Source of the DNA: a virus | Virus record (IMG/VR): IMGVR_UViG_3300046520_000140 | Span: 1-34,033 of that record | Direction: 5' to 3' (one strand) | Length of the DNA: 34,033 nt | In this document: positions 675-33,592 of the stretch, piece after piece | Numbering within the stretch: the stretch's first letter is position 1 | How the letters are laid out: every line of letters begins with the position of its first letter | Position numbers and translations under genes: made by a program | The notes under the pieces: model-generated | Database searches by the model: none | What the model was told of the DNA's origin: nothing | What the model saw: only the letters and a program-made list of their open reading frames with translations

Positions 675-704
675 AGGATGATCCTCATCAGGGTCTTTTT
701 TCTA

Positions 705-2324
705 ATGGCTAAAAACGGTGCGCGAGTATACAGCTATTTGCGCTTCTCAGACCCTCGACAGTCCACCGGTGGTAGCGCCGATCGTCAGTTGCAGTACGCC
801 CAGAAGTGGGCTGCTGAAAAAGGCCTGGTGCTCGACGATTCGCTATCCATGCGTGACGAAGGTCTATCCGCATATCACCAACGCCACATTACCCAGGGAG
901 CCCTCGGGGTTTTCCTGGTGGCGATCGAGGAAGGGCGAATCGCGTCCGGCTCAGTCCTGGTCGTGGAAGGACTGGATCGTTTGAGCCGTGCTGAGCCGAT
1001 CCAGGCTCAAGCCCAACTTGCGCAAATTATCAATGCCGGCATAACCGTTGTGACCGCCAGTGACGGCCGGGAGTACAACCGCGCCGGGTTGAAGGCCCAG
1101 CCGATGGACCTTGTTTACTCGCTCCTGGTCATGATCCGCGCTCACGAAGAGTCGGATACTAAGAGCAAGCGAGTGAAGGCCTCGATCCGGCGACTATGCG
1201 AGGCTTGGCAGGCTGGCACCTATCGGGGGCAGATCCGCAACGGCAAAGATCCTCAGTGGCTCAAGTGGACTGGTACCGAATGGGAGTTTATTCCTGAGCG
1301 AGTTGCTACCGTACGTCGAGCTCTGCAACTGTATCTGGAGGGGATGGGGGCAGCTCGCGCAGTTCGTATCTTGCACGACGAGGGGCTGAGTTACAGCGAC
1401 CTTGGAATTACCACTCTGCAGATCTACCGGATGATCAAGCTCAAGGCACTGCGAGGAGCCAAGAGCCTGACAGTTGAGGGTGAGGAGTTTGTCCTTGAGG
1501 ATTACTACCCACGGCTATTGTCGGAAACGGAATGGGCCGAGTTGCAGCACATGGGTGGCCAAAGATTACGGCGCAGGATGAAAGGCGAGATTCCAGGGAT
1601 TATCACTGGCATCGGCCTGACGTTCTGCGGCTATTGCGGTACCGCCGTTATTGGACAGAACTATATGAGCCGCGCCCGTGCTGACGGCACGCTCGCAGAC
1701 GGCCATCGCCGCTTGCATTGTGTGTCATACAGCCGAAACGACGGCTGCGGCTCCGGTGGTTCGTGCAGCGTGGTCCCGATTGAGAAAGCATTGCTGAACT
1801 TCTGCTCTGACCGCCTCAACCTGCAGCGATTGATGCAGCTTGGTGACGATGGTCAAGGCCTTCGCCATCAACTGGTGGGTGCGCGGGCTGCGGTACAAAA
1901 AATTTCGGACCAACTCGAAAAAGTCACCGCAGCTCTGCTTGCAGATGATGACGGCCCCGCGCCGGTTTCTTTCGTGCGTAAAGCTCGCGAGCTGGAGGCG
2001 CAGCAGCTTGATGCAGAAAGGAATGTGGCGAGCATTGAATACGAACTAGCGGTAGCGGCTGGTTCTGGCAAGCCAGCGCAGCATGAGCAATGGACAGAAC
2101 TGGCTGCCCTCGTCGCTGTGGGTGACTACGCAGCCAGGGAAAAGGTGCGCCAGTTGGTCATGGATACCTTCCAGCGGATCGTGGTTTATATGCGAGGGAT
2201 GGGCGACGAGGATCGCAAGAGCAAGTTTATTGATGTGCAGCTGCTTTCCCGTACCGGTCAGCACAGGCTCTTGCAGATCAGCCGGAAGACGGGTGAGTGG
2301 GTCGCCAGCGAAGACTGGGACTGA
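705..2324 (+). CDS. int: Large serine recombinase (phage integrase)
   Basis: Site-specific recombinase that joins attP and attB through a phosphoserine link. The 539-residue protein starts with a resolvase-type domain; YLRFS gives catalytic Ser15, followed by DRQ and by VLVVEGLDRLSR and the ESDTKSKRVKASI helix. A recombinase domain follows, then a zinc ribbon near residues 305-350 (CGYCG ... HC ... GCG), a coiled-coil stretch around 395-455 and a C-terminal tail. I chose ATG 705; an in-frame ATG at 678 has no room for a ribosome site. The start lies about 30 bp from the rimO start on the other strand. P2 and HP1 use tyrosine integrases, so this module is foreign to the virion genes. Confidence 0.93.
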   Translation: MAKNGARVYSYLRFSDPRQSTGGSADRQLQYAQKWAAEKGLVLDDSLSMRDEGLSAYHQRHITQGALGVFLVAIEEGRIASGSVLVVEGLDRLSRAEPIQAQAQLAQIINAGITVVTASDGREYNRAGLKAQPMDLVYSLLVMIRAHEESDTKSKRVKASIRRLCEAWQAGTYRGQIRNGKDPQWLKWTGTEWEFIPERVATVRRALQLYLEGMGAARAVRILHDEGLSYSDLGITTLQIYRMIKLKALRGAKSLTVEGEEFVLEDYYPRLLSETEWAELQHMGGQRLRRRMKGEIPGIITGIGLTFCGYCGTAVIGQNYMSRARADGTLADGHRRLHCVSYSRNDGCGSGGSCSVVPIEKALLNFCSDRLNLQRLMQLGDDGQGLRHQLVGARAAVQKISDQLEKVTAALLADDDGPAPVSFVRKARELEAQQLDAERNVASIEYELAVAAGSGKPAQHEQWTELAALVAVGDYAAREKVRQLVMDTFQRIVVYMRGMGDEDRKSKFIDVQLLSRTGQHRLLQISRKTGEWVASEDWD

Positions 2325-2354
2325 TGTTGTGGGCTGGCGAGGAGCTATCATATA

Positions 2355-2370
2355 CTGGTTATACGTACAG
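2355..2370. promoter_or_regulatory. LexA (SOS) box
   Basis: CTGGTTATACGTACAG fits the gamma-proteobacterial LexA pattern CTG-N10-CAG with an AT-rich alternating centre. It lies 20 bp before the start of the small gene at 2390 and after the integrase stop, so it most likely controls that gene. Confidence 0.75.
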
Positions 2371-2389
2371 TACAGGCAAGGAGCGTTTA

Positions 2390-2647
2390 ATGTCCCACAG
2401 CGTCCATCCCGGTGATCTTGAGCTATCGCATACCCCATTCGAACAGCTTTCCCGCCGCATTCATCGGCAGGTCAATAGCTCGGCCGCGCAGACGCGAAGA
2501 CGGACAATCATTGCGAAACTAGCAAGTGAAAAGCTTGATGACTGGGAGTGCTTGCTTGACCAACTGGACGTTGAGGACTGCGTGCGGGTTACACGTTTGG
2601 AATGTGGGGCTGTTGGTCTGACGTGGACGAATCAGCATTTGGGTTGA
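2390..2647 (+). CDS. Small DUF1654-like protein, SOS-controlled
   Basis: An 85-residue basic, soluble protein. The start is ATG 2390, preceded by AAGGAG; a longer upstream frame overlaps the integrase and is not needed. The middle (SRRIHRQVNSSAAQ ... WECLLDQLDVEDCVRV) resembles DUF1654, a small family common in Pseudomonas; this is recognition from memory, not a search. A LexA box lies directly upstream, so it should be expressed after DNA damage together with prophage induction. Its job is unknown; an accessory DNA-repair role or a directionality factor for the serine integrase are possibilities by position only. Confidence 0.7.
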   Translation: MSHSVHPGDLELSHTPFEQLSRRIHRQVNSSAAQTRRRTIIAKLASEKLDDWECLLDQLDVEDCVRVTRLECGAVGLTWTNQHLG

Positions 2648-2657
2648 ACGAAAACGC

Positions 2658-2710
2658 ATACCTCAGTTTTATATACCTGAGGTATTGATTTAAAAAGATA
2701 CCTGCGGTTA
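2658..2710. promoter_or_regulatory. Left operator cluster and early promoter
   Basis: Three copies of the phage operator: ATACCTCAGTTTT (2658-2670, imperfect), ATACCTGAGGTAT (2673-2685, perfect dyad) and ATACCTGCGGTTA (2698-2710). A possible promoter has TTGATT (2685-2690), an 18-bp spacer and TAATCT (2709-2714), with its -10 overlapping the last operator. The cro-side promoter has the same arrangement. CI and Cro are therefore expected to repress the 2772-3840 operon as well. Confidence 0.75.
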
Positions 2711-2771
2711 ATCTATGTCCGTCAATTCAGGAACCCAAAGTGGTGGCCTGATTTCAACGGAGGTCAACCGC

Positions 2772-3311
2772 ATGATTCGCCCTACCTTTAGCCTTTCATT
2801 TGAAGCCAGAGCGCAGCTGGCAGAGCACGTCAAACAGAACGGCGTGTTCCCCCTTCCTCTCGTCTGCAACTACGCACCGAGTTTTCTCCTAGCCAATTTG
2901 ACGATAGAGCAATGTGGTTCCGACGTTGCTGTGCAGGTCCGGTTGGGTGAGACGGTAAACACGTTTACCCTCGGCCTTCAGGGCGATACGGCTCATAGGG
3001 TCGAGCAGTTCGTAGAAGAGCTGGCCAACGTGCATTACGAACGTATGGCCCAGCCTATCCTCGATCGGGATCTGGAGTTCTTGTTGCGCAATGCTGCAAC
3101 AAGCCGCCGTGGACTCTATCTGTTGCCGCAGTCGGGAATGCATGACCTGAGGTTGCTACTGACAGCAGCCGCTGAGAATCCAGAACAGACGTATTTCAGA
3201 TTTTTATTGGGTGGTGCCGGTATTTCGGCTCCGGCGCTGATGCCGGCAGATCCTGATAAAGCCTACGACCTGCTCTCCAATTTCGTCCGCGAAATCAAGG
3301 AGTGGCAATGA
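2772..3311 (+). CDS. Hypothetical early phage protein
   Basis: First gene of a repressor-controlled operon. ATG 2772 is preferred because GGAGG stands 7-10 bases before it; an in-frame ATG at 2715 lies against the operator and lacks a ribosome site. The 179-residue product (MIRPTFSLSFEARAQL...) has no signal peptide or membrane segment and no motif I recognise. It has moderate GC and an acidic C-terminus (NFVREIKEWQ). Its stop overlaps the next start. Position opposite cI and behind operators suggests an early lytic function (recombination, anti-repression or excision), but nothing in the sequence proves it. Confidence 0.7.
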   Translation: MIRPTFSLSFEARAQLAEHVKQNGVFPLPLVCNYAPSFLLANLTIEQCGSDVAVQVRLGETVNTFTLGLQGDTAHRVEQFVEELANVHYERMAQPILDRDLEFLLRNAATSRRGLYLLPQSGMHDLRLLLTAAAENPEQTYFRFLLGGAGISAPALMPADPDKAYDLLSNFVREIKEWQ

Positions 3312-3544
3312 CCAACTCTCAGCTCCTATTGATATTGGCCGGCTTTTCAGAGCAAGACAGGCAGATCCTTTCGCATAGCGTGTCGGGTTGGAGAAGCGCG
3401 AACTTGGGTATCGATTCTGCTATCCAATCCGAGAATTGGCCGGCTATCGACAGCGCCCAGATCGATCGGGCATCGCACGCAAATACCATCGCGTTGATCG
3501 TAAACAAGTACACGGACCAAACTGAACAAGGAACACGGCCATGA
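3308..3544 (+). CDS. Small hypothetical phage protein
   Basis: A 78-residue protein starting at ATG 3308 behind AAGGAGT and overlapping the previous stop (ATGA). An in-frame GTG two codons earlier is less likely. It looks soluble, with no recognised domain. It is coupled on both sides: its own stop overlaps the next ATG at 3541. Because large serine integrases need a small phage-coded directionality factor and none is recognisable, this and its neighbours are candidates by size and place only. Confidence 0.65.
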   Translation: MTNSQLLLILAGFSEQDRQILSHSVSGWRSANLGIDSAIQSENWPAIDSAQIDRASHANTIALIVNKYTDQTEQGTRP

Positions 3545-3840
3545 TCGGTATCCCGGAGACAGGAACCTTGGAAAATGGCCGTATCGCTGCCAACGTCACC
3601 AGCGGTTACAAGTTCACCACAGCGGATGGCCGGCCTGCGCGCCTGGCGATCATCGATGACCAGGGCAACGTGGTTGAATCTGGCGAAGCGGTGGCGCGTG
3701 AGGCGTGGAACGTGTGCATCGCGGTGATCAAGAACTTCAAGATCGGGCAGGGCCATATCGTGGTCCATAGCGCACCACCAGGTCTAGCCATACAGAATAC
3801 ACCTGAGCCGCGTAAACGTGCCCAGCAGGTGCCATCATGA
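3541..3840 (+). CDS. Small hypothetical phage protein
   Basis: A 99-residue protein, last of the 2772-3840 operon, starting in an ATGA overlap with the gene before. The sequence (GRIAANVTSGYKFTTADGRP, then AIIDDQGNVVESGEAVAREAW) looks like a small beta-rich soluble domain; I do not recognise the family. It ends 38 bp from the convergent end of the CI-linked gene at 3879, with no obvious terminator between them, so antisense overlap of the two transcripts is likely. Confidence 0.6.
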   Translation: MIGIPETGTLENGRIAANVTSGYKFTTADGRPARLAIIDDQGNVVESGEAVAREAWNVCIAVIKNFKIGQGHIVVHSAPPGLAIQNTPEPRKRAQQVPS

Positions 3841-3878
3841 AAACATTGATTCAGAAGCCGCGCAGCATCGGGGCTACT

Positions 3879-4430
3879 TCACTCGTAGCGGCGAATAAGC
3901 CGATGTTGAAGCTGCATCACTTCCTTTTCTACCTTCCGGTAATCCCGCAGGACACGGGGTGGAAGGGCGAGTTCTCCATGTTGATCGGCCAAGTCGCCCT
4001 TGTTGAGTATCTCGAAGCGCCTTGTTGCGAGGTGCAGAAAGCGAATTACGTCCAGATCATCCACCAGCGGGCGACGGATGTTATCGACCTGTCTGCCGCG
4101 ATATTCTCGGCGAGGGTCGGGCAGAAAGAGGATGGTCTCGAATTGGTAGCGACGAGGAGTCAGGTCAATGAGGTTCCCTTGTGGATCTTGCCAGACAGTG
4201 TGGAACTCGGCCTCGATGTACAGACCGGAAGTCTCCCAGATCGCCCAGCCTATCAGCTGTTTTCCACCCTCAGCGACGACTTGCTCTGGAACGATGCTGA
4301 AACATTCGTTCTGTGGCTTGCCAACCAGCGGTTTATACGGGATGACAATGGGGACCTGATCTTGAGCTACGTACCGGCAGAAATCCTCCACATAAGCTAA
4401 TGCTGGATTACCTGGTTGCGTTATGAACAT
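3879..4430 (-). CDS. Conserved hypothetical protein co-transcribed with CI (lysogenic gene)
   Basis: A 183-residue soluble protein with a good ribosome site (AAGGA, 7 bases before ATG 4430) in the 23-bp gap after the cI stop, so it should be expressed with the repressor in the lysogen. The core reads NECFSIVPEQVV, GGKQLIGWAIWE, IEAEFHTVWQD, GNLIDLTP, a pattern I associate with uncharacterised proteins; the Cys and the EFH residues could bind metal or act in catalysis, which is inference. A 187-codon frame lies antisense in the same triplet phase and base composition does not separate them; the conserved-looking motif and ribosome site favour the minus strand. Genes placed like rexAB of lambda often act in exclusion or host fitness. 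Confidence 0.72.
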   Translation of the reverse strand: MFITQPGNPALAYVEDFCRYVAQDQVPIVIPYKPLVGKPQNECFSIVPEQVVAEGGKQLIGWAIWETSGLYIEAEFHTVWQDPQGNLIDLTPRRYQFETILFLPDPRREYRGRQVDNIRRPLVDDLDVIRFLHLATRRFEILNKGDLADQHGELALPPRVLRDYRKVEKEVMQLQHRLIRRYE

Positions 4431-4453
4431 GATTTTTCCTTGGTTGGCACTGG

Positions 4454-5173
4454 CTACATTCCGGTGATTTTGGCGTCGATCGCCCGGCCGATGATTTCCC
4501 AGTTGCCGTCCAGTACAACCGGTTGATAGCTGGGATTGAGCGGCACCAGGTAACCGACACCCGCATCCATCGTGTACTGCTTGAATGTCGTCTCTCCACT
4601 GACAGTGTTTCGAGCAACATAAAATTTCCCGCTGATGACATCAAAGCCCTCAGGACGGATCAGGATGGGTGTGCCTTCTGGAAAAGTAGGGTGGCTGTCA
4701 GAGGTCATCGATTTGCCCTTGACCCTCAACCAATAGCCCTTTGGACCAGCATTTTCCGTAGAGCTAAGCCACTCGTCAGAGATGCCCGACGGGTAACTGG
4801 CTAACGACTCGATCCCTTGGCCAGCGTCTACCCAAGTTATTAGCGGATATTCCCTGCCGTCTCTATATGGCTGCAGCATTGGGCTGACATTGGCATGCCC
4901 AGTGGTTGCCGCAAGCCCCGAAATTTCCGCAGCGAGACGCGGGCTGAACTTTTCAACTGGCTCGCCCAAAAGCTTTGCCAAGGCGGACGCAAACTTGATG
5001 TTCAGTGCGTTGATGCCGTTCAGGTAGTGAGCCACTGCAGCAGGACTCACGCCGATTTCATCGGCAATCTTTCGCTTGTTTAAGTTGAGTTCTTTTTTCT
5101 TCGAGAGGTAGAGCTCGTTGGCAGCTTTGCACTCATCGAAAAGCTCGGGGGGAAGGGGTGGCTTCTTATTCAT
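4454..5173 (-). CDS. cI: Lambda CI-like repressor, RecA-cleavable
   Basis: Maintains lysogeny by binding the operators next to it. The 239-residue protein matches lambda CI along its length. An N-terminal helix-turn-helix (KRKIADEIGVSPAAVAHYL, then GINALN as in lambda) is followed by a LexA/S24 peptidase domain. Cleavage site Ala117-Gly118, Ser155 (GKSM) and Lys198 (TTFKQ) keep the same spacings as lambda A111/S149/K192, so SOS-induced self-cleavage should work. The start at 5173 has no clear ribosome site; lambda cI from PRM is leaderless, so this may be too. It is divergent from cro and followed closely by the gene at 4430. Confidence 0.95.
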   Translation of the reverse strand: MNKKPPLPPELFDECKAANELYLSKKKELNLNKRKIADEIGVSPAAVAHYLNGINALNIKFASALAKLLGEPVEKFSPRLAAEISGLAATTGHANVSPMLQPYRDGREYPLITWVDAGQGIESLASYPSGISDEWLSSTENAGPKGYWLRVKGKSMTSDSHPTFPEGTPILIRPEGFDVISGKFYVARNTVSGETTFKQYTMDAGVGYLVPLNPSYQPVVLDGNWEIIGRAIDAKITGM

Positions 5174-5185
5174 GGGGGCAATGAT

Positions 5186-5326
5186 AAACCGGAGGTAAAT
5201 TAAAATAATTTACCTGCGGCATCGTTAGTGACCGTTCGTAAAATACCCGAGGTTTCTTATTACGGAGTCCATAAAAATACCCAAGGTATCTTTTCTGTTG
5301 TGGTCGACGATACCTCAGGTTAATAT
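5186..5326. promoter_or_regulatory. Right operator region between cI and cro
   Basis: Five operator copies of the form ATACC-N3-GGTAT: 5186-5198 (AAACC GGA GGTAA), 5210-5222 (TTACC TGC GGCAT), 5243-5255 (ATACC CGA GGTTT), 5277-5289 (ATACC CAA GGTAT) and 5310-5322 (ATACC TCA GGTTA). The first two are joined by a perfect dyad (arms GGTAAATTA and TAATTTACC, 5194-5214). A cro promoter fits TTGTGG (5298-5303), 17 bp, TAATAT (5321-5326), its -10 overlapping the last operator. The repeat family is direct observation; CI/Cro binding is inferred from position. Confidence 0.85.
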
Positions 5327-5354
5327 TGTGGCGTCTACCCAGAGATGCCCTGTT

Positions 5355-5612
5355 ATGAATCAAATCTCATTGTCTGAATTAGCCGCCAAAATTGGTCAGG
5401 CAGCGGTTGCGGAAGCCTTCGGGGTCACTCCCGCTGCCGTACATAAGGCAATCAGGTTGGGTCGGAAAATCATCGTGTCTGTGCACGCTGATGGCTCCTA
5501 CACAGCTGAAGAACTGCGCCCATTTCCATCAAACAAAGTCCTTCCTACGCCCCAGTTAGGGGGCGGGGCCGCTGGTGGTGATTCGCAGGTTATTGGGCAG
5601 AAGCTCGTATGA
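5355..5612 (+). CDS. cro: Lambda Cro-like repressor
   Basis: An 85-residue DNA-binding protein expected to compete with CI at the operators and start the lytic programme. Residues 1-61 follow lambda Cro: IGQAAVAEAFGVTPAAVHKAI is the helix-turn-helix, then GRKIIVSVHADGSYTAEEL and RPFPSNK, nearly as in lambda (GRKIFLTINADGS ... KPFPSNK). A Gly/Gln-rich tail of about 24 residues is extra. ATG 5355 was chosen because the homology begins there; an upstream in-frame ATG at 5298 lies inside the operators. The stop overlaps the next start. Confidence 0.9.
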   Translation: MNQISLSELAAKIGQAAVAEAFGVTPAAVHKAIRLGRKIIVSVHADGSYTAEELRPFPSNKVLPTPQLGGGAAGGDSQVIGQKLV

Positions 5613-6241
5613 ACACGTCCAATCCAGGACAGACGTCCACGTCTCGTGACCAGGTGTTGGTGGCGCATGCCGTTGAGATGATCGCGCGCACCGGTTTCAG
5701 CCAGGACGACTTTGCCCAGGCATTAAGCAGCAGCCTGCATCGCATCGTTCCAGACAAGGCCGTAAGCAAGGACGTGCCCGATTTCGACGAGTTGGCCAAG
5801 GGCAACGACGCGCCGGCGTTTCTGAGAGCATCAGGCGCTTGGTTACGTCGCGTTGGCCGCTGGCTCAATGGTGAGGTAGATCTGCCGTGCTGGCTGGAAG
5901 AGGCGTGGGTAGAAGCTCTCGAAGGCGACTTCAAAGACGATTGCATCAACGAGCTTGCCAGTCGTCACGGTCTGACTGGCGCGCGCGAGCTGGAAGGTGA
6001 CGGCAATCCGCTGTGTGCGTTCGGCCTACTCGTGGCCAGGCTGGGCGATACAGTTGCCCTGGGCAGCGAGATCCTTGCAGACGGTCATATCGATCTCCAG
6101 GACATCGACAAACTGCCTAGCTTCGTCGATCGGCTCCGGTCAGTCGAAGCGCGGTGCTGCGAACTTCGCTCACGTGCCGAAGACGTGCTGCTCGAGCAGC
6201 ACCAGAAACCTATCCTGCAACAGGTGAATACCCGCCTGTGA
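5609..6241 (+). CDS. Hypothetical phage protein coupled to cro
   Basis: A 210-residue acidic soluble protein starting in an ATGA overlap with cro and ending in a GTGA overlap with the replication gene, so it is part of the early rightward operon. The first part (HAVEMIARTGFSQDDFAQALSSSL) could form a helical DNA-binding domain, and the middle contains WLNGEVDLPCWLEEAWVEAL, which I recall from uncharacterised Pseudomonas phage proteins in the same place. Lambda has cII here and enterobacterial prophages YdaS/YdaT; no clear match to either is visible. A regulatory or replication-accessory role is inferred from position. Confidence 0.65.
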   Translation: MNTSNPGQTSTSRDQVLVAHAVEMIARTGFSQDDFAQALSSSLHRIVPDKAVSKDVPDFDELAKGNDAPAFLRASGAWLRRVGRWLNGEVDLPCWLEEAWVEALEGDFKDDCINELASRHGLTGARELEGDGNPLCAFGLLVARLGDTVALGSEILADGHIDLQDIDKLPSFVDRLRSVEARCCELRSRAEDVLLEQHQKPILQQVNTRL

Positions 6242-8182: not shown

Positions 8183-9204
8183 TAGTCAGTGGTTTTTGCT
8201 TCGTCATCTGGAGTCCTCCAGCTAATTCTCCTGTCTTCTCGCAGACTGTCATTGACTTGGTTGAACAGCTGGCAGATGGGCCGAATCTCGTTACTGGTGT
8301 ACACGCGATCGATCTTTTCGATGTCGCCAAAGCCAGCGCTGTTTTCCGGGATGATGCCGGCCAACGCAGGGTTCATGCGCCACGCGGCGATCACATCGTT
8401 TCGGGTGATGTTCTTGACCTTCTCCAGCTCGTCCTTGGCCTGAAAGTCTCCCACTGGGATGATCTGGATGGCCTTCTCGGCGCCGCCGGGGATGTTCACA
8501 AACATCGATCGGAAGTTGCCCACACCCTTGCTCGCGCTGATCTGATCGCGCAGGGACTCTTCGTCCTCCTCGGTCAGGTTCGGATCGTTGGTGTAGAAGA
8601 TGTAACCCGCGTGCGCGCCGTTGCTGTAGTAGCGGCGGCGGAAGAGGGTAGCGGCCTCGTTGAGCAACAGCGCCTGCATGCCGCCCAGGTAGTCGGGCAC
8701 GCCGTAGATGTTCTGTTCCACGTCGTAGTTCATGACGTGCTCGACTTCATCCTCTTCGAACTCCACTTTCTTGCCATCCGGCAGCAGCATCACAAACCCG
8801 CCACCAACCCTGACCCGCATGTTGATAGTTGGCAGGTGTTCCATTTGCAGCACCTGGCCGAAAGCATTGCGATTGCGCAGCAAGTACGCCTCGCCGAAAA
8901 CCATGAAATCCAACCCGGCTCTGCTCATGGTCTGGACTGAACAGCCATCTGAGGGAATGAACTCACGCAGCAGCAGGTTGCGCTTGAACCCCGGAATGGC
9001 GCCGTGGTGAGCGTTGGCGCGCAGCAGTTTGGCCAGGCCTTGGCGTGACACCGGCGGCGTGTAGGTCTGGCCGTCGTGGGTGGCGAACACGCCCAGGTAA
9101 TGCCCGATGTTCTCGGTCAAAACCTGTTCCGGTGCACCGAATGAAAACGCCCGCATCGGACCTGGTACTGGTTTTTGCGGCTGGTTTTTTGCTGGTTTGC
9201 CCAT
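8182..9204 (-). CDS. Q: Portal protein (P2 gpQ-like)
   Basis: A 340-residue portal subunit forming the dodecameric DNA gate at the capsid vertex and binding terminase. It has the P2 gpQ/PBSX-type look: RAFSFGAPEQVL near residue 18, FMVFGEAYLLRNRNAFG, NIYGVPDYLGGMQALLLNEAATLFRRRYYSNGAHAGYIFY, and MNPALAGIIPENSAGFGDIEK near the end. Length equals the usual about 340. On the minus strand with terminase and ogr, opposite to the capsid genes, exactly as P2 has PQ against ONML. The ribosome site is poor (GGACCAAGCACCC before ATG), so translational coupling to terminase is likely. Confidence 0.95.
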   Translation of the reverse strand: MGKPAKNQPQKPVPGPMRAFSFGAPEQVLTENIGHYLGVFATHDGQTYTPPVSRQGLAKLLRANAHHGAIPGFKRNLLLREFIPSDGCSVQTMSRAGLDFMVFGEAYLLRNRNAFGQVLQMEHLPTINMRVRVGGGFVMLLPDGKKVEFEEDEVEHVMNYDVEQNIYGVPDYLGGMQALLLNEAATLFRRRYYSNGAHAGYIFYTNDPNLTEEDEESLRDQISASKGVGNFRSMFVNIPGGAEKAIQIIPVGDFQAKDELEKVKNITRNDVIAAWRMNPALAGIIPENSAGFGDIEKIDRVYTSNEIRPICQLFNQVNDSLREDRRISWRTPDDEAKTTD

Positions 9205-11026
9205 GGGTGCTTGGTCCGCTGAGTGTGTAGCGGCTACGCCGCTGTTTGTTGGTGTTTAGAGGTTCGTGGGCTAGGGCGTGCATGATTGCCCAGGCGATAT
9301 CGGCATGACCGGAGGCGTCGGTGCGCGACGCGCTGTACGTGACCTGGCCACCGCCGGTGGTGCCACGCTTGATCGTCAGGAAGGCCTGCGCGATGTCATT
9401 CCAGCCGGCGTCCCACTCGATCCTGCTGCCCTGAATCGTGTCCTGCGCTTTGAGCACCAAGGTGTTTTTGGTTTCGAGGCTGTAGTGGATCGAGGTCGCA
9501 CGCGGGTAGAAATCGCGCACCAGGTCGAACACGCCGTAACCGATGCCGGTGGTATCGATGCCGATGTGCTGCACGTTGAAGCGCTCTGTGAGTTTCTTGA
9601 CCTGCTCGGCCTGGTACTTGAACGACTGCCCACGCCAGCTGTGTTTCTCCAGGATCCGGAACTTGCCGCCGTCCTCGAGCGGCGGGGCGATGACCACACA
9701 ACTGGCATCGTCGCGGGTGCGGCTCGGGTCGTAGCCGATCCACACGGGGCTGTTGCCGAACGGGCGCGGGTCGTCAGGGTCGTAGTCGGTCCACAACGAC
9801 AGGTCGGAGTAGCAGCGTTCAAGGTCGACCAGGGAAAAGGCGCTCTGCGTGCTGTCGATAAACTTGCACATGAACAACTGCTGAAACTTGTCCTCGTCGT
9901 ACTCCAGCTGCAGCTGCTCGAGGTCGAACAGATCGCAGCCGCCGGCAATGGCGTCGAGGATGGTGATGACCTTGCGCCATTGCCCGTCCGGACAAAGTGA
10001 GCCAGCCGCTGCTTGGGCTTCGCTAGGCCATGGATCTTTGGCGTTTTTGCGTTTGCTGTTGCGGAATTTCTCGCCAGTCCAGAACGGGTACGCCTGATGC
10101 GACACGGCGCTGGGCGTTGAAAAGTAGGTTTTGCGCCACTTCTTGTGGGTGGCCATGGCACTGGCGACGGTGTTCAGTTTCTCGAAGTCGCGGATCCAGA
10201 AGTACTCGTCGACGTAGACGTGGCCATGGTGCCCCTGGGCGGTGCTGCTGTTGGTGCTGAGAAAGCGCAGCTCGGCCCATGGCTTGCCGTCTTTGCTCAG
10301 CACGATCGGGTTGCCGGTCAGCTCGAGGCCGAACCATTCCTGTGCGAACGATACGATGTAGCTGCGGAAAATCTCGGACTGGGCACGGCTGGCCGAGAGG
10401 AAAATCTGGTTGTCACCGGTGAGCACGGCATCCATGAACGCTTCGCCGGCGAAGTAGTAGGTCAGGCCTACCTGTCGGCTTTTGAGGATGTTGCGGATCC
10501 GGGCCGTCAGCGGGTTCTGTTTGGCGGCGAACAGCTCCTTTTGGTAGCCGTACATTTTGCTGATGAACTTGTCGAGAAAGTCGACTTCCGTCAGCTCACC
10601 CACTTCGTTTTTGGATTTTTTCTCGCGCTTCTTTCCGCTCTTGTCGCCGCGATCACTTCGTTCTCGACGTTCGCTACGTTGATTGTCCCGGCGCTGTCCG
10701 TCCTCCGGCGGCAGCTCTCCGATCGGCGACGAAGCTGGTTTGGTCGATTGCTTGATCAGCCGCTCACGGACGGTGGTCAATCGGTCGAGCTCGTCCAGCT
10801 CGGCCTTCGTCAGCGACGTGGCTTTGTCCAGGAGGAGGGTGATTCTCCGGCCGACGGCGGTCAGCGGTTCTTCATCCGACAGCATGTCGTCCCACTCGCC
10901 CTGGCGGATCCAGTAGTAAACGATCCGGATGTTGGGCAGGGACAATTGGGCCTGAATTTCACGCGGCTTGCAGCGGCGTAAATAGAGGCGTTTGGCGGCT
11001 TCTTTAAGTTCGGGGGCGTATGGCAT
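8963..11026 (-). CDS. P: Terminase large subunit, ATPase (P2 gpP-like), extended at the 3' end
   Basis: Motor and nuclease that packages DNA into proheads. The N-terminus has a small helix-turn-helix (AAKRLYLRRCKPREIQAQL), then a long charged linker, an ATPase region (ILKSRQVGLTYYFAGEAF as Walker A-like part; GHVYVDEYFWI as Walker B) and a nuclease domain with GYDPSRTRDDASCVV and HIGIDTTGIGYGVFD. P2 gpP has about 590 residues; this frame has 687. The last 80 or so residues (after about 607) overlap the portal gene in another frame and are Arg/Pro/His-rich, so they are probably run-on translation after loss of the usual stop near the portal start. Confidence 0.93.
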   Translation of the reverse strand: MPYAPELKEAAKRLYLRRCKPREIQAQLSLPNIRIVYYWIRQGEWDDMLSDEEPLTAVGRRITLLLDKATSLTKAELDELDRLTTVRERLIKQSTKPASSPIGELPPEDGQRRDNQRSERRERSDRGDKSGKKREKKSKNEVGELTEVDFLDKFISKMYGYQKELFAAKQNPLTARIRNILKSRQVGLTYYFAGEAFMDAVLTGDNQIFLSASRAQSEIFRSYIVSFAQEWFGLELTGNPIVLSKDGKPWAELRFLSTNSSTAQGHHGHVYVDEYFWIRDFEKLNTVASAMATHKKWRKTYFSTPSAVSHQAYPFWTGEKFRNSKRKNAKDPWPSEAQAAAGSLCPDGQWRKVITILDAIAGGCDLFDLEQLQLEYDEDKFQQLFMCKFIDSTQSAFSLVDLERCYSDLSLWTDYDPDDPRPFGNSPVWIGYDPSRTRDDASCVVIAPPLEDGGKFRILEKHSWRGQSFKYQAEQVKKLTERFNVQHIGIDTTGIGYGVFDLVRDFYPRATSIHYSLETKNTLVLKAQDTIQGSRIEWDAGWNDIAQAFLTIKRGTTGGGQVTYSASRTDASGHADIAWAIMHALAHEPLNTNKQRRSRYTLSGPSTHGQTSKKPAAKTSTRSDAGVFIRCTGTGFDREHRALPGRVRHPRRPDLHAAGVTPRPGQTAARQRSPRRHSGVQAQPAAA

Positions 11027-29563: not shown

Positions 29564-30844
29564 TTAATTGCTTCTTACGACCCATAACTGATCAATCTTA
29601 GTCGTAAAGCTTTGACTCATCATCTCTCGCCGCATACCCCAATCGGGCGTTGCTGGCACTCCTCCAGTGCGAAGTGTTCCGCTGCCCCAGCGCTGATTGA
29701 TCTCATCCAGCACACTCATAACCTTTTCGGCTGCTTGCGGTTGCGACTGGGCGAATAGGTCATCAGTAAATTCTCCGGGCTGCCGCAGATCCATCAACAG
29801 TACTTCGGCCTTGCTGTATTTGAAGCCTGGCCGGAAAAGCCGGTTGACTGCCTCGGTCGCGGCTTTTGTCAGCAGTCTTACATCGTTGGTCGGATAAGGC
29901 AGTTCCACTAACGCGCCATTGGCGTACTTGGCTTCCTCCGGACTGAACATGCCGGTGCGGATGCTGACGCGCAGTTTCTTGCACAGCGAGTTCTGCGCCC
30001 GCAGCTTTTCCGACGCGCGCTGCACGTAAGTGGCGACCGCTTCTTTGATCGGCTCGATGGACGTCAGGCGTTTGCCGAACATGCGACTGCTGCAGATCTC
30101 CTGCTTCGCAGCTTCGGCCTCGGTGAGTTCCAGGCACGATGTTCCAGTGAGCTCGCGCGCGGTCTTCTCGATCACCACGCTGAATTTCTGCCGAAGCGTC
30201 CACGGATCCGCTTTTGCCAAATCCATCGCTGATCTGATTTCCATGGTTTCGAGATGCGCTTTCATGCGACGGCCGACGCCCCACACCTCGCCCACGTCAG
30301 TGTTTCGCAGCACCCAATCGCGCTTGGCCGGATCGCAGATATCGACGACCCCGCCCGTTTCCGCCTGCAAGCGTTTCGCTGTGTGGTTGGCGAGTTTGGC
30401 GAGGGTCTTGGTGGGAGCGATACCGACACCAACCGGGATGCCCGTTCCTTTGTAGACGGCGGCGCGGATCGTTCGGCCAAATGCGGTAAGGTCACCGGGA
30501 ATGCCGGTCAGGTCGGCGAACGCCTCGTCGATGCTGTACACCTCGACGGTGGGTACCATGGATTCGATGATGCTCATGACCCGTTCGCTCATGTCGCCGT
30601 ACAGTGCGTAGTTGCTGCTGAACACCTGCACGCCGTGCTTGCGCAGCACGTCTTTGATCTGGAAATACGGCGCGCCCATTTTCACGAATGGCTTGGCGTC
30701 GTAGCTGCGCGCGATGACGCAACCGTCGTTGTTGCTCAGGACGACGATCGGCGTCTTGGCCAGGTCCGGCCGGAACACGCGCTCGCAGCTGGCGTAGAAG
30801 CTGTTGCAGTCAATCAGGGCAAAGACTGGTTCACGACTTGGCAT
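29564..30844 (-). CDS. umuC: DNA polymerase V catalytic subunit UmuC
   Basis: A 426-residue Y-family translesion polymerase. Catalytic acidic residues are Asp12 (ALIDCNSFYASCERVFRPDL) and Asp106-Glu107 (YSIDEAF). GVGIAPTKTLAKLANHTAKR and VWGVGRRMKAHLE follow in the palm/thumb, then a little-finger domain and the UmuC-type C-terminus. Length equals E. coli UmuC (422). It overlaps umuD by 14 bp and should be induced by SOS from the LexA box at 31287. A mutagenic polymerase on a prophage can raise survival and mutation of the host under UV. Confidence 0.96.
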   Translation of the reverse strand: MPSREPVFALIDCNSFYASCERVFRPDLAKTPIVVLSNNDGCVIARSYDAKPFVKMGAPYFQIKDVLRKHGVQVFSSNYALYGDMSERVMSIIESMVPTVEVYSIDEAFADLTGIPGDLTAFGRTIRAAVYKGTGIPVGVGIAPTKTLAKLANHTAKRLQAETGGVVDICDPAKRDWVLRNTDVGEVWGVGRRMKAHLETMEIRSAMDLAKADPWTLRQKFSVVIEKTARELTGTSCLELTEAEAAKQEICSSRMFGKRLTSIEPIKEAVATYVQRASEKLRAQNSLCKKLRVSIRTGMFSPEEAKYANGALVELPYPTNDVRLLTKAATEAVNRLFRPGFKYSKAEVLLMDLRQPGEFTDDLFAQSQPQAAEKVMSVLDEINQRWGSGTLRTGGVPATPDWGMRREMMSQSFTTKIDQLWVVRSN

Positions 30845-31262
30845 GATCGCGCACGCTGTATGTCACCACACCCCAGATCAGCAGCTCGTCACCCTCCATC
30901 ACATAGCGCGGCGGGTACTTGGTATTCGCGGACATCAGAATGATGGTGTTATCGCGAATGTGCAGGCGCTTGCAAATCGGTTCGGCGTTGAGACCAGCGA
31001 TGACGATATCGCCGTGCTCGGCGGTCAGGCTGCGATTGACCACCACCATGTCTCCGCAAAAGATGCCGGCACCTTCCATGCTGTCGCCCTCGATCTTTGC
31101 CAGGTAAACGTGCGGCGCGCGGATCTCGAACAGCTCGTCCAGGGAAATGTGCTTTTCGATGTGATCAGCCGCAGGCGACGGAAACCCGGCAGGAATTCGA
31201 AAGGAATAAAGCGGGAGCTTTGCGCCTCCCTCCGACAGCGGGCCAACGATAGTGACACTCAT
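30831..31262 (-). CDS. umuD: UmuD-like polymerase V subunit, RecA-activated
   Basis: A 143-residue S24-type auto-protease. Cleavage site Ala25-Gly26 (IPAGFPSPAADHIEKHISL), Ser61 (GDSM) and Lys98 (ICKRL) match E. coli UmuD (C24-G25, S60, K97). The truncated form binds UmuC to give active polymerase V. I chose ATG 31262; an ATG 12 codons upstream lies on the LexA box and would lengthen the N-terminus without homology. The promoter region is shared with the divergent SRAP gene. Confidence 0.94.
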   Translation of the reverse strand: MSVTIVGPLSEGGAKLPLYSFRIPAGFPSPAADHIEKHISLDELFEIRAPHVYLAKIEGDSMEGAGIFCGDMVVVNRSLTAEHGDIVIAGLNAEPICKRLHIRDNTIILMSANTKYPPRYVMEGDELLIWGVVTYSVRDHAKS

Positions 31263-31286
31263 GATGCGAACCTGGTGAGAGATTGA

Positions 31287-31302
31287 CTGTATACCCATAC
31301 AG
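31287..31302. promoter_or_regulatory. LexA (SOS) box between umuD and SRAP gene
   Basis: CTGTATACCCATACAG is a near-perfect LexA operator (CTG-TATA-N4... -CAG). It stands 25 bp before umuD on the minus strand and 61 bp before the SRAP gene on the plus strand, so one box can repress both. A -10/-35 pair could not be fixed with confidence for either direction. Confidence 0.9.
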
Positions 31303-31362
31303 TAAACTCGGAGGTCCGCGCGTGGTCAATGCTGTATGTAGGACATTTCGACGGGTGACACC

Positions 31363-32061
31363 ATGTGCGGACGTTATTCGATATACGAGTCGATGGATCA
31401 CTATCTCAGAGAGCTGGCTCCCCAGCAGTTGGTTATCAACGGATACGACCTGTGGGCCATCAATCGCTACAACGTTGCGCCCTCCACGCGCGTGGAAATC
31501 ATCCGGCCGGTTGATGGTGGCCTGAGCATCGACAAGGTGCGCTGGGGATGGTCGCCGTTCTGGGCGAAGGGCAAGCGGCCCGACCCGATCAACGCGCGGG
31601 TGGAAACGGTCACCACCGGGAAATTCTTCAAACAACTGTGGCCGAATGGTCGAGCGATTGCGCCGGCCAATGGCTGGTTTGAGTGGGTAAAGGATCCGGA
31701 TGATCCGAAGAAAAAACAGCCGTACTTCATCCGCTTGAAAAGCCAGGCGCCTATGTTCTTCGGCACGCTCGCGCAGGTGACGCCTGGGCTTGAGCCGAAC
31801 GATCAGGATGGGTATGTGATCATCACCGCAGCGAGCGATCAGGGAATGGTGGACATCCATGATCGCCGGCCATTGGTGTTGGATCCCTCGCTGGCCCGGG
31901 AATGGCTGGAGCCGGATCTGGATCCGCAGCGGGCTGAGGAAATCGCCAAGACCATGTGCCGGCCCACTGAGGACTTTGAATGGTTCAAGGTGGATCGGGC
32001 GGTAGGCAACGTACGCAATCAGGGGCCGCAGATGATCATCCCGCTTGACCAAGTGGAATAA
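31363..32061 (+). CDS. yedK: SOS response-associated peptidase (SRAP, YedK/HMCES-like)
   Basis: A 232-residue protein that caps abasic sites in single-stranded DNA by a covalent link to its second residue. All key residues are present: Cys2 (MCGRY), Asn77 and Glu81 (NARVE), Glu107 (WFEW) and His166 (DIHDRRP), equal to YedK C2/N75/E105/H160. Cys2 supports the chosen ATG. It is divergent from umuDC over one LexA box, so the prophage couples translesion synthesis to abasic-site protection. A likely terminator follows at 32131. Confidence 0.95.
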   Translation: MCGRYSIYESMDHYLRELAPQQLVINGYDLWAINRYNVAPSTRVEIIRPVDGGLSIDKVRWGWSPFWAKGKRPDPINARVETVTTGKFFKQLWPNGRAIAPANGWFEWVKDPDDPKKKQPYFIRLKSQAPMFFGTLAQVTPGLEPNDQDGYVIITAASDQGMVDIHDRRPLVLDPSLAREWLEPDLDPQRAEEIAKTMCRPTEDFEWFKVDRAVGNVRNQGPQMIIPLDQVE

Positions 32062-32153: not shown

Positions 32154-32551
32154 GTGCAAATCCAGATGTAGTGCAAACGAACCTGTAGCCCAAGCGGGCC
32201 GTGGGGCTCTGCAGACGATTGGCTATTTCACAAAATGCAAAATTTTGCAGGGAAATGCAGTGCAGTTGCACAGCGACGCAAACGGCGCGCACGGAAGGAA
32301 TAAAGTTGGGGTGCCCGGTTTCATTGGGCGAAAACTTTTAAAACGCGGGTTTTAGTGAGTTTTCGAATTTGTAACTGCTCGCTTCAATTACAGTATTGGA
32401 CCCTGTATTAGGAGGCATTCAAACCGATGCACGCCATAGGAGCTGGGCCTTTCAAGCCATCCGCCTAATTGCACTACTTGTCCAAAAGACATTGCACACA
32501 TCATTTTTGACTTATCGTAGTGCTCCCGCCAAGCAGAACGGCTGTTGCCCT
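32154..32551. other. Intergenic region before the DUF4238 gene
   Basis: About 400 bp without a convincing gene. It contains the perfect palindrome TGCAAAATTTTGCA (32236-32249) followed by repeated TGCAG/GCAGTTGCA fragments up to 32270, which could be an operator. An open frame from 32396 joins the DUF4238 gene in frame, but its first 52 codons look unlike protein, so this stretch is probably the leader of that gene. Confidence 0.45.
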
Positions 32552-33592
32552 ATGGACAAGTTCGAGAAGCTCGCATCCAAACCGCACCTCAACGGCCCGG
32601 TACAGCAGCATTACGTCCCGAAATTTTATTTGAAGGGATTTACCTCAGATCAGGTGCTTTCCGTTTTCGATCGGGTCAAGGGAGAGATCAGGAACCGACA
32701 GTCCCCGAGCGCTATAGCCACTATCCGTCACCTCTATACCTTTGAGGACAACCAAGATCGCAAGCGGTTTGATCTGGAGGCGTTTTTCGGTCTCGTAGAA
32801 GATAGTGCTGCTCCAATCTTGATTTCTCTCGCGCAGGGAGCCCGCTTAAGTCGGAAAGATCGCGAGTCTTTTGCACTCTTTCTTGGTCTCGCCGCTGTTC
32901 GAACACCTGCTGCCATTGCAGATGCGAGAGCTTCATACGCTGGAATGGTAAAGGTGCAGACAGGGCATTTGTTCAGCGATGAAAAAAGGGTCTTAGAAAT
33001 CCTCAAAAAAACGAATAGTTCTGCGGTTGATGAGACGTTACTGCGAGATCAAGCCCGGGAAGTCGCAGAGATGGTTCGAAGCGATTCGTATGACGTCGAA
33101 GTTGATCAGCAGTTTGCACTTCACCGTTCATTAGGCGTCTGGTATATCGTCGCTGAAGAGCTGTTCAAGCGAGACTGGAGAATCTTGCACGTCCCTGGCG
33201 ATGAACACAGTTTCCTGACGTCAGACTCACCCATTGTGGTGCAGTCTATGTCCTCATCACTTCGACATGAGCCGATTGGTTACGGCTCGCCGCACGCACA
33301 GATTCTATTCCCCCTCACCTCGAAGTGCGCGCTTGTCGCAAGTGGGTCGTTGGGACGAACAGGCCGAAGCGTTATTACGGCTGAGGATTTGCATCGGTTC
33401 AATCTAACGATCGCCCAGGATTGTCATAGATACGTCATGGGCAGTGACGCGGATCTGGTGAATAGAATTACTACGGAATTAAACCTCGCCGAAACAAAGT
33501 GGGAGCCTAAATCGAGCGTCGAGATCGGGTATCTGATCGAGGCGGACGGCAAACGATCTGCTCGAGGCATTCTGAAGCGTAAGGGGTCTTGA
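32552..33592 (+). CDS. DUF4238 family protein (cargo gene at attR)
   Basis: A 346-residue soluble protein. The N-terminus PVQQHYVPKFYLKGFTSD is the signature of DUF4238, followed by RHLYTFEDNQDRKRFDLEAFFGLVEDSAAPIL, FLTSDSPIV and a beta-rich ILFPLTSKCALVASG. ATG 32552 is chosen because the family motif starts about 20 residues later; an in-frame ATG at 32396 would add 52 poorly protein-like residues. No good ribosome site is seen. The function of the family is not known to me; the last-gene-before-attR position and independent leader fit a cargo gene, possibly for defence. GC is lower than in the tail genes. Confidence 0.82.
   Translation: MDKFEKLASKPHLNGPVQQHYVPKFYLKGFTSDQVLSVFDRVKGEIRNRQSPSAIATIRHLYTFEDNQDRKRFDLEAFFGLVEDSAAPILISLAQGARLSRKDRESFALFLGLAAVRTPAAIADARASYAGMVKVQTGHLFSDEKRVLEILKKTNSSAVDETLLRDQAREVAEMVRSDSYDVEVDQQFALHRSLGVWYIVAEELFKRDWRILHVPGDEHSFLTSDSPIVVQSMSSSLRHEPIGYGSPHAQILFPLTSKCALVASGSLGRTGRSVITAEDLHRFNLTIAQDCHRYVMGSDADLVNRITTELNLAETKWEPKSSVEIGYLIEADGKRSARGILKRKGS

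Follow-up and report, generated by a model that had tools for sequence, protein, structure and literature searches.

An eight-site operator family consistent with a lambda-type CI/Cro switch, and a PL operon facing cI, in a P2-like Pseudomonas prophage

The viral record IMGVR_UViG_3300046520_000140 from IMG/VR, analyzed over its full 34,033 nucleotides (hereafter the window), contains eight copies of a 13-bp palindrome, ATACC-N3-GGTAT, in two clusters on either side of a repressor gene, cI. We read the window as a P2-like Pseudomonas prophage whose lambda-type CI/Cro switch has five of these sites as its right operator region OR and three as its left operator region OL, and assign this reading a probability of roughly 0.87. 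It draws on the sites, their conservation among relatives, the way they covary with the two regulators CI and Cro, and their geometry over the promoters, all of which can be seen in the sequence. The operator family is well supported, and the recognition system, as judged from these features, is an ordinary lambda-type one. What is unusual is the conserved wiring around it, which would function as the lambda switch does yet departs from the lambda arrangement, because the promoter PL points the opposite way.

Eight putative operators over predicted promoters

The original prediction described an operator family of three plus five copies, and every copy lies where it had been placed. The first cluster comprises OL3 (ATACCTCAGTTTT, 2658–2670), OL2 (ATACCTGAGGTAT, 2673–2685), and OL1 (ATACCTGCGGTTA, 2698–2710); the second comprises O5 (5186–5198), O4 (5210–5222), O3 (5243–5255), O2 (5277–5289), and O1 (5310–5322), with no strand assigned to any of these palindromes. 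Two operators match ATACC-N3-GGTAT exactly, one carries a single mismatch, and five carry two. Allowing up to two mismatches gives 17 matches in the window where chance predicts 4.5, and of these the eight operators alone form clusters. In 400 first-order Markov copies of the window no 140-bp interval held more than two sites, compared with the five observed, and a composition-matched 258-bp control averaged 0.22 matches with a maximum of 4 over 20,000 runs, compared with the eight observed. A symmetric matrix built from the eight sites ranks them first to eighth (scores 13.8–21.7), with the best score elsewhere being 12.6 at position 514 and the outside matches at 514 and 24347 standing isolated, so that a scan with the 13-bp matrix returned no equally good copies outside the two clusters. 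This matrix is partly circular, being derived from the same eight sites, and leave-one-out scoring served as a control: seven of the eight still outscored every outside match, the exception being the weakest site, at 5210 (leave-one-out score 11.2), for which the case comes mainly from conservation in relatives.

The sites are positioned over predicted promoters in a manner that closely recalls lambda. Several operators sit between the divergent genes cI (4454–5173, minus strand) and cro (5355–5612, plus strand), where they overlap both the rightward promoter PR and PRM, the promoter for repressor maintenance, and the remaining cluster lies beyond the far side of cI, at PL. On the plus strand, PR (5298–5326) consists of a −35 box TTGTGG (5298–5303), a 17-bp spacer, and a −10 box TAATAT (5321–5326), and PL (2685–2714) consists of TTGATT (2685–2690), an 18-bp spacer, and TAATCT (2709–2714). 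Each −10 box starts within an operator that ends in GGTTA (O1 and OL1, respectively), an overlap that the original prediction had also reported. Relative to the PR start, predicted near 5333, O1 is centered at −17 and O2 at about −50; relative to the predicted PL start at about 2721, OL1 is centered at −17 and OL2 at −42. For PRM, which is read from the minus strand, the −10 box TATCAT (annotated at 5173–5186) spans −13 to −8 from the cI ATG, and O4 and O5 are centered at −43 and −19 of a start predicted near 5173, the positions from which OR2 activates and OR3 represses PRM in lambda. The PRM −10 box immediately precedes the cI ATG in all clades of relatives described below, reading TATAAT in two of them (B and C). 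Because it ends only 6–8 bases before the ATG, we predict that the cI mRNA is leaderless, as in lambda. O4 and O5 are separated by a 24-bp step similar to that of lambda, and the remaining OR steps are 33 or 34 bp.

Probable recognition by CI and Cro

Both regulators proved to be as lambda-like as the original prediction had held. CI has a helix-turn-helix domain, an N-terminal arm, and a self-cleaving S24 domain (Pfam HTH_3 and Peptidase_S24); its best match among solved structures is lambda CI (3bdn, E 2e-37, residues 2–233), and the alignment retains the AG cleavage site, the SMT serine, and the FK lysine. Cro belongs to the lambda family (Pfam Cro, E 3e-22), with lambda Cro as its best solved match (2ecs, E 5e-14, residues 3–62). 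In each half-site, lambda CI contacts base pair 2 through Gln44 and base pair 4 through Ser45, as lambda Cro does through Gln27 and Ser28, and Asn55 together with the arm reads the CC at positions 6 and 7. Both window proteins carry Pro-Ala in the recognition helix where lambda has Gln-Ser, and Asn55 is retained. In both the lambda half-site TATCACCGC and the window half-site ATACC, ACC is equally far from the center, which gives a common ACC-N3-GGT core, and the two half-sites differ in their outer bases (TCACC in lambda, ATACC here): position 4 is T in the window and C in lambda, position 2 carries little information in the window, and the outer contact of the 17-bp lambda site is missing. 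The 13-bp operator thus looks like a lambda operator minus its outermost contact.

The operator itself is not new, contrary to the original prediction. In addition to the register shared with lambda, the 15-bp form AATAC(C/T)-N3-(G)GTATT, which contains the same ATACC-N3-GGTAT core, occurs at both OR and OL of mEpX2, a lambdoid phage of E. coli with CI and Cro annotations of the HK620 type; mEpX2 CI is 39% identical to the window CI over its length. Nearly all mEpX2 half-sites have an outer A at −7, and its CI and Cro have Gln at Q44 and Q27, where the window proteins have Pro. The window operators share the core of the HK620/mEpX2 type (AATACC-N3-GGTATT) but show no conserved base at −7 (0.25 bit).

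Two scans for relatives of CI yielded 42 loci, 19 of which were usable for full comparison with the window. By recognition helix and operator, the window and its relatives form three clades. Clade A (the window, L002, L003, L004, L036, and L037, with L006, L007, and L038 having fewer sites) combines the CI helix SPAAVAHYL and the Cro helix TPAAVHKAI with ATACC-N3-GGTAT sites; in L002, L003/L004, L036, and L037 these occupy the same positions as in the window, OR holding five of them and OL two or three. Clade B (L009–L015, L039, and L040) combines the CI helix TPVSVNQYL or TPASVNQYL and, where the cro gene is readable, the Cro helix KPASIAKAL with TAGCC-N3-GGCTA sites at corresponding places, where OR has at most four and OL at most three, and its OR regions contain no clade A site at up to one mismatch. 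Clade C (L005, L008, L016, and L041) has the CI helix TPASVN(N/H)YL and the Cro helix of clade B, and its operators look as if they stood between two specificities. Across the clades the CC/GG core is nearly constant, and the adjoining bases vary together with the recognition helix. Hall, LeFevre, and Cordes reportedly described, in 2005, comparable correlations between Cro helices and OR half-sites, with helices and operators changing together. We infer that these operators are recognized by the two proteins alike, and regard the covariation of helix and operator as the strongest evidence.

Several observations weigh against this interpretation. The PR −35 box TTGTGG is poor, and a generic promoter scan picked neither PR nor PL. 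Activation of PRM is uncertain, because the activating residue E34 of lambda CI is R in the window protein. L006, L007, and L038 retain fewer good OR sites, and the half-sites TAGCC and ATGCC are mixed in both the cI–cro and OL regions of clade C. The loci include near copies (L002 of the window, L009 of L040, and L006 of L007), which reduces the number of independent cases, and any looping between OL and OR is suggested by the layout alone.

Conserved wiring and alternative readings

In the window, a serine integrase, a LexA box, and a DUF1654 gene lie upstream of OL, followed by four PL genes on the plus strand, cI on the minus strand, OR, and then cro and a CII-like gene on the plus strand; all 19 relatives preserve the succession of integrase, DUF1654, OL, PL genes directed toward cI, cI, and OR. 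The large serine integrase (678–2324, plus strand; Pfam Resolvase and Recombinase; PHROG 95, integrase) occupies the same place in the relatives. A LexA-type SOS box, TACTG-N10-CAGTA (2353–2372, plus strand), which like the PRM geometry went unnoticed in the original prediction, matches at 10/10 specified bases; counting the window, 19 of 20 loci have it in this position with at most one mismatch and a variable middle. The DUF1654 gene follows (2390–2647, plus strand; Pfam DUF1654, E 3e-15); since the box is complete in the window and so widely conserved, this gene is probably under SOS control. We rejected the ATG at 2715 as the start of the first PL-operon gene, as it lies upstream of the predicted transcription start at about 2721. 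Given that start, the gene must begin at the ATG at 2772 (2772–3311, plus strand), which has GGAGG upstream, and this start is conserved together with its GGAG ribosome site. The further open reading frames of the operon (3308–3544, 3541–3840, and 3837–4400, plus strand) overlap at their stops and starts, and the last ends 53 bp from the end of cI. In all 20 loci the PL operon is convergent with cI, so that both early operons run in one direction, as the original prediction had stated for the window. Between OL and cI some relatives carry extra genes (families F14 and F20), and the OL–OR distance, 2.5 kb in the window, ranges from about 1.7 to 4.7 kb in the relatives. Family F14, absent from the window, is a protein of about 330 amino acids with apparent N-terminal membrane helices; its gene interrupts the PL operon in several relatives (L004, at 8951–9946, as well as L036, L006, L009, and others), and the protein has no Pfam or PHROG match.

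The likeness to lambda has clear bounds. The two systems have in common homologous CI and Cro proteins, a divergent cI–cro gene pair, operators that cover PR and PL, PRM operators near −42 and −19, and a leaderless cI mRNA (predicted here). Lambda, however, has three OR sites at steps of about 24 bp instead of five at mostly 33-bp steps, and its PL leads away from cI to drive genes on the int/xis side, whereas PL in the window leads toward cI and the integrase, a serine recombinase, does not belong to the PL operon. mEpX2 resembles lambda in that its genes on the far side of OL point away from cI, and the literature searched contained no description of the inward layout. We considered the serine-integrase phage LPPA36 as a carrier of this layout and rejected it, as it shares the integrase alone at the DNA level. 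The CI of phage 186 is SOS-inducible, and we liken the window phage to it in this respect. P2-like virion genes are present in the window, as is a gene for a CII-like activator (5609–6241, plus strand; PHROG 4834, E 3e-32), and phage 186 likewise carries CII (PMC7708051). In P2-like phages, the lytic and lysogenic promoters stand face to face, 40–60 bp apart, with Cox/Apl sites between them (PMC7498355), whereas cI and cro in the window are back to back with palindromic, lambda-type operators.

The best surviving alternative, which we nonetheless consider improbable, is that OL serves mainly as a loop anchor for cI regulation, with PL being weak and its operon transcribed chiefly by read-through from the LexA-controlled promoter ahead of DUF1654. 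In 19 of the 20 loci the LexA box and the DUF1654 gene immediately precede the operon and share its strand, and we found no terminator between them and the PL operon in the window, both of which favor read-through; PL itself, on the other hand, is kept across clades (TTGATT or TTGATA, then TAATCT, TAATTT, or TAACTT), together with its overlapping operators and the ribosome site that follows. Less likely again is use of the sites by Cro alone or CI alone, with the other regulator acting at different sites, since the recognition helices of both proteins change along with the operator across clades and both carry Pro-Ala in place of Gln-Ser. A chance or unrelated repeat family, such as sites for a host regulator, has in its favor that isolated matches at up to two mismatches are somewhat more frequent in the window than expected, but the eight sites contradict it by how they cluster, where they lie, and how they are conserved and covary, and we rejected it on the latter two.

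A proposed switch and its significance

From a CI/Cro switch at OL and OR, we infer binding, promoter activity, PRM activation, looping, an SOS response, and an antisense effect as follows. In a lysogen, CI dimers would occupy both OL and OR; CI at O1 and OL1 would cover the −10 boxes and block PR and PL, with OL2 covering the edge of the PL −35 box, while CI at O4 would probably activate PRM to produce the leaderless cI mRNA. O5, within PRM, would be a site for Cro or for excess CI, and a CI loop may join OL and OR. SOS signals would enter twice, through RecA-driven cleavage of CI and through LexA leaving its box ahead of the DUF1654 gene. Upon induction, PR would express Cro and the CII-like protein, and the PL operon would be transcribed toward the 3' end of cI. 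As the PL genes face cI across a 53-bp gap and a simple scan of the window, L008, L010, and L036 found no terminator between them, transcription may continue into cI and would then be antisense to it. A tentative extension, which we hold to be unlikely, is that the inward PL acts as a lytic lock once CI levels drop, its transcripts passing the 3' end of cI and lowering CI by antisense or collision and DUF1654 adding the second SOS input.

Under this extension DUF1654 may be an antirepressor, for which phage 186 offers a precedent in its LexA-controlled antirepressor tum, or a directionality factor for the serine integrase. DUF1654 and the first PL gene matched only families without known function in Pfam and PHROGs, their AlphaFold models (of fair confidence) gave no convincing match in the PDB, and a tblastn search of 50,697 phage records with the first PL gene gave no match. 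A single paper in the literature searched mentions DUF1654, which is conserved behind a LexA box in nearly all relatives.

Beyond the switch, the virion genes come nearest to those of UFJF_PfPro, a P. fluorescens phage of the Peduoviridae, with 77% identity across half the stretch that was searched. An integrase is annotated in UFJF_PfPro and its early region differs greatly, so that the early module of the window is a separate cassette. A further SOS cassette (29564–32061) contains a LexA-like box (31285–31304) among umuC-like (29564–30844, minus strand), umuD-like (30831–31298, minus strand), and SRAP peptidase (31363–32061, plus strand) genes, and a DUF4238 protein (32396–33592) is encoded past it, near the right end.

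The switch proteins and the operators of this module are thus those of lambda, and the wiring differs, with PL facing the repressor gene and a LexA box adjoining OL. Between clades, the sites hold corresponding positions and about two recognized bases per half-site have changed, making these loci a natural experiment in the joint change of operator specificity by CI and Cro. If PL does oppose cI, the lytic choice would gain from PL a positive feedback that lambda lacks.
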